Source: Oceaniferula marina (GTDB lineage Bacteria > Verrucomicrobiota > Verrucomicrobiia > Verrucomicrobiales > Akkermansiaceae). Taken from it: a DNA stretch of 32,801 bases. Positions 25,318-27,246 of this stretch are shown here, piece by piece. The position numbers and the translations under genes were made by a program. Position 1 is the first letter of the stretch. The number at the start of each line of letters is the position of its first letter. The notes under the pieces are model-generated. The model had not been told where the DNA came from. It made no database searches and was given only the letters and a program-made list of their open reading frames with translations. The stretch spans positions 1 to 32,801 of the forward strand of contig NZ_JACBAZ010000017.1 of the NCBI RefSeq assembly GCF_013391475.1, read 5' to 3'.

Positions 25318-26427
25318 TTACGAGCCCTTCGCGGCCTCGGCTTCGGCAACCATTTCTTTGATCGCCTTTTCCATCTCTTCACCGCGTAGCCCCTTGTGCT
25401 TGATCACACCATTGTGGTCGATCAGATACAAGGTCGGCCATCCGCGGACACCCCACTTGGTGGAAATTTTCCCGTAGGATTGTTCATTCGTAAAATTGCG
25501 CCAGGTCGTTGTTCCGTCCTTCACCAACTGCTTGAGTTTTTCCTTACTGTCGCTATTGACTCCGACAATGGCAAAAGGGCGTCCCTTCAACTCCTTCACG
25601 AGCGACCGCTCGTGAGGAAGCATGGCTTTGCACGGGCCTCACCAAATACCCCAAAAATCAAGCAACACAACTTGCCCCTTGTAATCACTGAGCTTGAACT
25701 CCTTGTCATCCTGATCCTTGCCCACGATATCCGGAGCCTTGCACCCGACAGACAAATTCTCAGCAACAAAAATTTCGCCCTTCACCTGCTCAAACAATCG
25801 TGGGTTGCTCTCAGCCAGCCCCGGTGTTTGTTGCAGTTTCTTCATCACTTCCAAACCTTCTTTTTTGGTGGCCTCCTGTCGTCCCAACTTCGAGCCGAGA
25901 TAATACATCGCGCCCTGCCTGACTTTCTCGCTGCCAGCTTTATCAGCAATCAAACGCAACTCCTTGATACCATGCTCACCCCATGAGCGGCCATAGTTCT
26001 GAGCCAACGACCCAAGCACCTTGCTGTCCTTGTAATGCGTCAGTAACAACTCCAAGATCTCTTGGCTTTGCTGGGGACGGGCACGCCGAACACTCCATGC
26101 CAAACCATCTTCCACGCCCTCAGCCTTGGGGTCTTGTTTAACCAAAGCGAGAATCTGACCCACCGAGGCCTTGGAATCCGGGCGCTCCTTAAAAAGCTCA
26201 TTCCGCTTGTCCCGGTCCTTCACCTTGCGAAGCTCCGCATAAAAGGCCTTCACCTCCTTGTCGAAGGCCGAAGTAATAGCCTCGATCTGCTTTTTTGCGC
26301 TCTCCTTGGAAGGCTCCGCCTGCGCAGCTGGAACCAATGGCGTCGCAGGCACCGACTCCTGAGCCTGCAGCAGAGCCGCAGAGCCACAAATCAATGCCAC
26401 CGTCGTAGTAATGGTAGTCAATTTCAT
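25318..26427 (-). CDS. TlpA/thioredoxin-like protein with probable selenocysteine in the active site (UGPC)
   Basis: This exported protein has 369 residues if TGA 25641-25639 is read through. The signal peptide (ALICGSAALLQAQ) is followed by an Ala/Pro linker and a helical domain of about 150 residues. The C-terminal TlpA/AhpC-TSA domain has FKLSDYKGQVVLLDFWGIW, then the TGA, then GPCKAMLPHERSL, and the cis-proline motif GWPTLYLID. The TGA occupies exactly the first Cys of the WCGPC redox motif (residue 263, with Cys266 kept), and the reading frame and family similarity are intact on both sides. A strong hairpin lies just downstream (see next feature). I therefore call a selenocysteine codon rather than a pseudogene. 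A standard caller would split the gene into 25318-25623 and 25639-26580. The start ATG 26427 is chosen for its signal peptide. The likely role is a periplasmic thiol-disulfide oxidoreductase. Confidence 0.85.
25591..25620 (-). promoter_or_regulatory. Bacterial SECIS-like hairpin
   Basis: On the minus strand, the perfect 8-base-pair stem TCACGAGC / GCTCGTGA is capped by the loop GGTC (25607-25604). It is extended below by CTTCC against GGAG with one bulged A. The loop begins 31 bases after the TGA, inside the 16-37 base window I recall for bacterial SECIS elements. GGU(C) in the apical loop is the conserved SelB-binding feature, as in E. coli fdhF. The hairpin lies within the coding sequence. 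Confidence 0.82.
25639..25641 (-). other. In-frame TGA, probable selenocysteine codon (Sec263)
   Basis: Codons around it read GGT ATT TGG TGA GGC CCG TGC AAA, that is G-I-W-U-G-P-C-K. The canonical thioredoxin motif is W-C-G-P-C. The position, frame continuity and the hairpin downstream together mark it as a recoded stop. A simple TGC-to-TGA nonsense change is the alternative. Confidence 0.83.
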
Positions 26428-26544
26428 ACAGTAAGTGTAATATTCAGTAGAAAAGCGTATTCTTAACTTATTTTTGTGCTGAATTAACCAGAGCGGTGCA
26501 AATTTAATTGTGTAATCAACGCCATCCATAACGTAGAATAAGTA

Positions 26545-27246
26545 ATGCTTGCTGCTTTTCAGCTCTACGGTCTCGACCATCTGGGAACCTTGTTCTTCCT
26601 CACCGGAGTGACTTGGCTCTTGATCCGACTCTGCCGAAAATCCCCACCTCGCCCGGGAGCCAAGCTGGGCATCTCTTTGCTCGCCTTTCTCTGCTTCGCA
26701 TCCTATCCCATCAATCAGGCAGCCGTCGCCTCCATCGGAGTCTCACGCGATCTCGGACAACTTCTCCCCCTTCACCTCTGTGACATCACCGCTTTCATCT
26801 GCGGCTTTGCACTGGTTACCCGCCGTCCACTACTCTGCGAACTCGCTTACTTCTGGGGTCTGGCCGGCACCCTCCAGGGAGTGCTCACCCCTGACCTTTC
26901 CCACGAGTTTCCCAACCCGGCCTACATCTCGTTTTTCCTCCAACACGGAGCCATCGTCATCACAGCCATTCTCCTGCCCCTGGGACTGGGATGGAGCCCC
27001 CGCAAACACGCTGCCCGCAACACCTACCTCTGGCTGCTCGCCTACGCTGCCGCCATTTATCCGATCAACCTGCTACTCCATACCAATTTCGGATTTGTCA
27101 TTGCAAAACCCAGCGGAGCCAGCCTACTCGACGTCTTGGGAGACTGGCCATGGTATATCCTCTGGACCTTACTGATTGCCTCCGGAATTTTCTACCTACT
27201 CGAACTCCCCTTCAAACTCCGGCGCCATCAAGGAGGACACAATTAA
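26545..27246 (+). CDS. YwaF/TIGR02206-type integral membrane protein
   Basis: This 233-residue protein has about six membrane helices. The conserved region of the TIGR02206 (YwaF) family is visible: LLPLHLCDITAFICGFAL followed by ELAYFWGLAGTLQGVLTPDL, then FPNPAYISFFLQHGAIVI. Family function is unknown. It is divergent from the selenoprotein-type gene and 118 bases from its start, so the two probably have back-to-back promoters in the AT-rich region 26428-26544. The C terminus is short and basic. Confidence 0.87.
   Translation: MLAAFQLYGLDHLGTLFFLTGVTWLLIRLCRKSPPRPGAKLGISLLAFLCFASYPINQAAVASIGVSRDLGQLLPLHLCDITAFICGFALVTRRPLLCELAYFWGLAGTLQGVLTPDLSHEFPNPAYISFFLQHGAIVITAILLPLGLGWSPRKHAARNTYLWLLAYAAAIYPINLLLHTNFGFVIAKPSGASLLDVLGDWPWYILWTLLIASGIFYLLELPFKLRRHQGGHN

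Follow-up and report, generated by a model that had tools for sequence, protein, structure and literature searches.

The window analyzed here, a stretch of 32,801 nucleotides from Oceaniferula marina, carries on its minus strand a probable Sec-containing TlpA/ResA-like gene (25318..26427).

A TlpA/ResA-like gene split by an in-frame TGA

The gene starts with an ATG at position 26427 and ends with a TAA at 25320-25318, giving 369 codons plus the stop when the UGA at codon 263 is taken as selenocysteine (Sec). This codon (25639..25641, minus strand) is the sole TGA inside the frame and lies in the context FWGIW-U-GPCKAML. According to the frame and the homologue alignment, it replaces the first catalytic Cys, the Cys of W-C-G-P-C at which the original prediction had placed it. 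Under the standard code, the locus is read as two open reading frames (ORFs), one of 313 aa (25639..26580) and one of 101 aa (25318..25623). The apparent replacement of a catalytic Cys by Sec thus causes ordinary gene finding to split the gene in two, as had been foreseen. The PF00578 match of the translated protein spans the TGA (residues 227-344), bearing out the claim that similarity continues unbroken on both sides.

Residues 1-22 (MKLTTITTTVALICGSAALLQA; 26362..26427, minus strand) were recognized by eye as a probable signal peptide, and hydrophobic leaders also open the proteins of the relatives. An all-helical N-terminal domain follows (residues 38-226; 25750..26316, minus strand), and then a TlpA/ResA-type thioredoxin domain containing W-U-G-P-C (residues 227-368; 25324..25749, minus strand), assigned by Pfam, AlphaFold2, and fold match. 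In the latter domain, W-P-T at 330-332 is presumably the cis-Pro site of thioredoxins. The Pfam families AhpC-TSA (77.3 bits), Redoxin (66.1), and Thioredoxin_8 (50.3) scored over their cut-offs; all matches were confined to residues 227-353, with none in the N-terminal domain. In the 17 members of set A1, the Pfam families were likewise thioredoxin-type, except for a weak Cytochrom_B562 match in one.

The AlphaFold2 model of the full protein (mean pLDDT 82.1, pTM 0.66) had a TlpA/ResA-type domain preceded by helices at 41-224, in agreement with the long helical N-terminal domain that had been predicted. The C-terminal domain superimposed on ResA (2h1b_C) with a Z of 19.0 and 1.9 Å over 133 residues. 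When modelled alone (two sequences), the N-terminal domain reached a pLDDT of 91.3 and resembled helical repeats. Foldseek returned nothing for it at E ≤ 0.001, and in VIA it scored best, with a Z of 10.9, against helical repeats of designed and TPR type, a similarity that may reflect merely a common arrangement. In the fold search with the whole model, the thioredoxin domain filled the matches.

The same TGA among relatives

Within the bacterial family of the window genome, 28 of 260 genomes had matches, with 41 genes at E ≤ 1e-30. A TGA was present inside 40 of these genes, in every case at the catalytic codon; the exception was L027, from genome G173. In a profile search of the order, 100 of 386 genomes matched at E ≤ 1e-40, from which 48 loci (L109-L156) were read, the remaining rows being mostly without TGA. 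The alignment of 89 rows consisted of the 41 family genes, the host's paralogue L017, and 47 sequences from the loci read in the profile search. Of these loci, 46 were used; L110 and L112 were dropped as second copies of genes already included, and L126 contributed two sequences. The original prediction had proposed to ask whether close homologues hold Cys or TGA at this column. Codon 263 was TGA in 48 sequences, Cys in 24, and another residue in 17.

The 48 Sec genes comprised 45 with UxxC (counting the UGPS of L023) and 3 with UxxU. They came from 32 genomes, 27 in the family of the window genome and 5 in another, f2 (G398, G331, G365, G292, and G352). Compared with the window protein, 46 further Sec proteins of the tree showed 27 to 71% identity. 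There were 38 distinct 57-mers among the 48 genes, and because the genes are related in this way, the conservation counts given below are not independent of one another. In a sample of the phylum, 5 of 387 genomes matched at E ≤ 1e-55, all from one class, and the sole TGA was that of the window's own genome. None of the other known Sec-form genomes was among these matches, so the sample evidently does not contain them and a wider spread is possible. Two Flavobacterial proteins were set aside, as their alignment over the N-terminal part was poor, with 18% identity there. No common neighbouring ORF was found by eye at 15 loci, and a few close pairs seemed to share one. Several genomes of genus g13 (for example, G219, G220, G222, G229, and G237) carried two Sec paralogues on different contigs, with lengths of about 350 and 325 aa.

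The TGA might instead have arisen in an ordinary Cys-type TlpA gene, either by nonsense mutation or through an error in sequencing. This explanation could draw on the copy in Rubritalea profundi (Verrucomicrobiota, Verrucomicrobiales), which looks decayed and has frame changes. Against it, 48 genes from 32 genomes have a TGA at this very codon, which makes a sequencing error implausible, and the codons of the hairpin described below are nearly frozen. We therefore consider this explanation highly improbable, in line with the earlier argument that a chance nonsense mutation would not be expected here. The R. profundi copy (L049 3001-4082) is the same gene as L023 in G207, a genome of the window genome's family. 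Its frame changes twice in the N-terminal part and its second active-site Cys is a Ser (UGPS); the TGA and the hairpin are intact. Sequencing error is an alternative to decay in this copy; as it looks decayed, the protein may be dispensable there.

The downstream hairpin and the selenocysteine machinery

Downstream of the TGA lies a bacterial SECIS hairpin (25596..25615, minus strand), assigned from folding, conservation, and controls, with an 8-bp stem, of which the inner 6 bp are conserved, and a GGUC loop. Its sequence is UCACGAGC-GGUC-GCUCGUGA, and the loop (25607-25604) is 31 nt past the TGA, exactly as the original prediction had stated. The hairpin folded alone had an energy of −12.4 kcal/mol; the 61-nt stretch around it gave −25 (z −2.88), with 3 of 200 shuffles equally good. 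The bSECIS model, as described in the accessible part of PMC13188914, has a loop of 3-9 nt with a G in the first two positions, a stem of 4-16 bp, a spacing of 16-37 nt, and a minimum free energy of at most −7.5. The 4-nt loop, the stem, the spacing, and the folding energy of the hairpin all fall within this model. Rfam gave no match over the window at the gathering score.

In all 48 Sec genes, the hairpin core, GCGGTCGC, started exactly 32 nt downstream of the T of the TGA; TGA homologues devoid of a conserved hairpin, which would have spoken against the prediction, did not occur among those read. Over the same 60 nt, the core was present in none of the 24 Cys and none of the 17 no-Cys homologues, and elsewhere in the aligned genes it occurred once in a total of 85,572 nt. 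The codons of the hairpin encode E-R-S-L. Among 38 conserved columns, defined as those in which at least 90% of the Sec genes have one amino acid with more than one codon, these four were the least synonymously variable, with GAG in 45/45, CGG in 48/48, TCG in 48/48, and CTC in 45/48. Away from the hairpin, all six codons of both Arg and Ser were used in the same Sec genes.

Pairing was examined in 24 sequences, including the window, picked from the 48 for diversity. The inner six pairs were intact in 142 of 144 cells, and the outer two in merely 9/24 and 12/24 sequences. The perfect 8-bp stem that had been predicted therefore holds in the window but not across these relatives, which keep the inner six pairs. 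Only two double changes were found in the inner helix, C-G to U-A and G-C to A-U. Covariation was no better than in shuffles (score as high in 220 of 500; percentage paired in 417 of 500). As the helix is almost invariant, this test was not decisive; it was dropped as proof of the hairpin, and the synonymous-codon test was used instead.

The host genome (5.07 Mb, 88 contigs, 97% complete) encodes a tRNA-Sec (51.7 bits against the Rfam cut-off of 47; also named tRNA-SeC by ARAGORN), SelB (306.6 bits, cut-off 242.25), SelA (514.6 bits, cut-off 267.9), and SelD (375.3 bits, cut-off 125). All four genes for which the original prediction had advised searching, selA, selB, selC, and selD, are thus present. 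SelA was found in 70 of the 260 family genomes at E ≤ 1e-60 (69 above the cut-off) and in 25 of the 27 same-family genomes with the Sec form; the two without a SelA match, G183 and G240, are 83 and 86% complete. Of the 70 genomes with SelA, 44 lacked a match to the window protein at E ≤ 1e-30; the gene is thus frequent among Sec users without being universal. The host SelD is itself a selenoprotein as judged from an in-frame TGA (L013 1528-1530, contig C1); the hairpin after this TGA is weak, with shuffled versions of the stretch folding about as well (z −0.54). Selenophosphate synthetase is among the verified Sec families in Table 1 of PMC13188914, in the part of that paper available. A search of the host genome for TGA codons followed by this hairpin core gave 7 places, and the control gave 5. 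Leaving aside the window gene, which has 367 + 106 open codons, the best of the six remaining places had 39 + 65, and with frames this short no further selenoprotein was found by this search.

An alternative reading is that the UGA specifies Trp or Cys, either because the code has changed or by plain readthrough, with the hairpin coincidental to the protein sequence; the open frame on either side of the codon is compatible with it. We regard this possibility as very remote, as tRNA-Sec, SelA, SelB, and SelD are all in the genome, the frame holds a single TGA, the hairpin is frozen at its synonymous sites, and none of the 41 homologues with Cys or without it has the core. On the basis of the machinery, the conservation, and the natural controls described below, we take the UGA at codon 263 to be decoded as selenocysteine and not to be a nonsense mutation. 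This reading of the sequences supports the selenocysteine interpretation originally put forward.

The tree contained 88 rows, the fragment L086 being left out, and was drawn at the midpoint, with weak root branches. Three Cys genes retained traces of the hairpin. L027 (Cys, TGT) sits on a long branch among the Sec genes with moderate support (94/53) and keeps the inner six pairs, with a GCAA loop instead of GGUC. L122 (G369) and L129 (G381), both with Cys encoded by TGC, keep GGTC, but the inner stem is disrupted at two pairs in L122 and at four in L129; they fall within the UxxU group, which has a support of 100/100, and their fork with L119 has 100/99. We read L027 and L122/L129 as probable changes from Sec to Cys with SECIS remnants. 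G173 has SelA too, so the Cys of L027 does not result from SelA loss. The WCHxC genes of family f4 that were read have no E-R-S-L peptide, which fits the RNA dictating E-R-S-L in the Sec genes.

Two further groups of relatives were observed. On the UxxU side branch (L117, L118, and L119 from G398, G331, and G365 of f2), the genes have two in-frame TGAs, giving UPTU, ULAU, and ULTU, and a single hairpin located 31 nt from the first UGA and 22 nt from the second. A paralogous clade (100/100) with the same two domains is made up of L017 in the host's own genome (C6:218999-220075) and 16 other loci of the same family (L121, L130-L132, and L137-L148). All 17 lack the first catalytic Cys, having D, E, M, I, or A instead, and 16 of them also lack the second; this no-Cys paralogue is perhaps a binding protein.

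Proposed function and relation to known selenoproteins

Taken as a whole, the explanation we favor, with a probability of roughly 0.85, is that the gene encodes an exported selenoprotein, its UGA read via the GGUC hairpin, that acts as a TlpA/ResA-type thiol-disulfide reductase in the periplasm. SelB with Sec-tRNA would read UGA 263 through the GGUC-loop hairpin 31 nt downstream, and the product would be secreted to the periplasm. There, the selenolate of W-U-G-P-C would attack a disulfide or another oxidised thiol of a client, and Cys266 would resolve the mixed selenyl-sulfide. A DsbD-like membrane protein might then recharge the enzyme. The host genome encodes a DsbD-like protein of 761 aa (63.4 bits to DsbD_TM, cut-off 27.1), a plausible electron donor. 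The helical N-terminal domain would most likely bind the client or a partner. The steps from export onward are proposed from knowledge of the family, and the leader recognized by eye, the ResA-like fold, the Pfam domain, and the DsbD-like protein make a periplasmic seleno-thiol reductase the most likely assignment.

Alternatively, Sec may be decoded while the enzyme is a peroxidase, a methionine-sulfoxide or selenite reducer, or a selenium-dependent switch between a short and a full product. The domain scores with the AhpC-TSA and Redoxin models as well, peroxiredoxins are among the fold matches, and stopping at the UGA would yield an exported helical domain. However, both C-x-x-C positions are retained with G-P between them, as in reducing thioredoxins, and proteins of the TlpA/ResA/DsbE type are its best matches in both sequence and fold. 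We consider these possibilities unlikely, though less so than the two alternatives to Sec decoding discussed above, and retain the thiol-disulfide reductase as the preferred assignment.

ResA, TlpA, and DsbE (CcmG) are exported reductases with the same fold and a W-C-x-x-C site, in which Cys stands where the window protein has Sec. Among the matches listed, their solved chains cover the window protein only from about residue 212 on. The window protein reached no NCBIfam cut-off; its best score was to ResA NF002854 (76.9 bits, cut-off 170). All 17 members of set A1 matched each of the generic ResA, TlpA, DsbE, and thioredoxin NCBIfam models at E ≤ 0.001. The ResA-like selenoprotein model NF041054 (WAxxUGC_long) shares a ResA-like domain with Sec, but its motif is UGC, whereas that of the window protein is UGPC, and the latter scored 45.8 bits, below the cut-off of 300.

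In the accessible part of PMC13188914, Table 1 lists UxxC selenoproteins of cd02966 (thiol-disulfide isomerase-like), PF00578 (also UxxU), and PF08534 (redoxin), together with a UGC TlpA-type selenoprotein to which the identifier cd02966 is also given; PMC9312934, as far as its available text goes, has a similar list. Four sequences of the cd02966 UxxC selenoprotein were reported from Sargasso Sea data (PMC1088965, available portion). It likewise has a thioredoxin-like domain with Sec first in UxxC; in the descriptions in PMC1088965 and PMC13188914, by which alone it is compared here, neither a helical N-terminal domain nor a Verrucomicrobial host is mentioned. The Prx-like PF00578 selenoproteins, compared from the same partial description (PMC13188914), have the same AhpC-TSA-type domain with UxxC, and UxxU as in our side branch, and again a helical N-terminal domain is unmentioned. 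PMC4807772, in the part available, deals with selenoproteins of Planctomycetes, not of Verrucomicrobia. The string "Verrucomicro" does not occur in the main texts of PMC13188914, PMC12013277, PMC9312934, and PMC2398784, nor "Verrucomicrob" in that of PMC5029168, and no paper on the family was among the matches listed in the literature on Verrucomicrobia/Verrucomicrobiota and on TlpA. We therefore place the protein in a new subfamily within the known UxxC TlpA-fold selenoproteins, unless it is identical with the listed cd02966 UxxC family, which is known to us by description.

A broader proposal is that these genes form a selenoprotein family of Verrucomicrobiales not described before, with Sec ancestral in the UGPC/UxxU group and Cys derived (L027 and L122/L129), with E-R-S-L dictated by the SECIS RNA and not by the protein, and with one SECIS, 31 and 22 nt away, serving both UGAs of the UxxU genes; we hold the chances for and against this combination to be evenly balanced.

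These results add a well-supported, probably exported selenoprotein family to the Verrucomicrobiota, on whose selenoproteins no paper was among the literature matches listed, and illustrate how selenoprotein genes are split under the standard code. The Sec, double-Sec, Cys, and no-Cys relatives, together with the SECIS remnants, constitute a natural experiment on the retention and loss of Sec at a thioredoxin site, and the same set of relatives bears on how an RNA signal can fix protein sequence.
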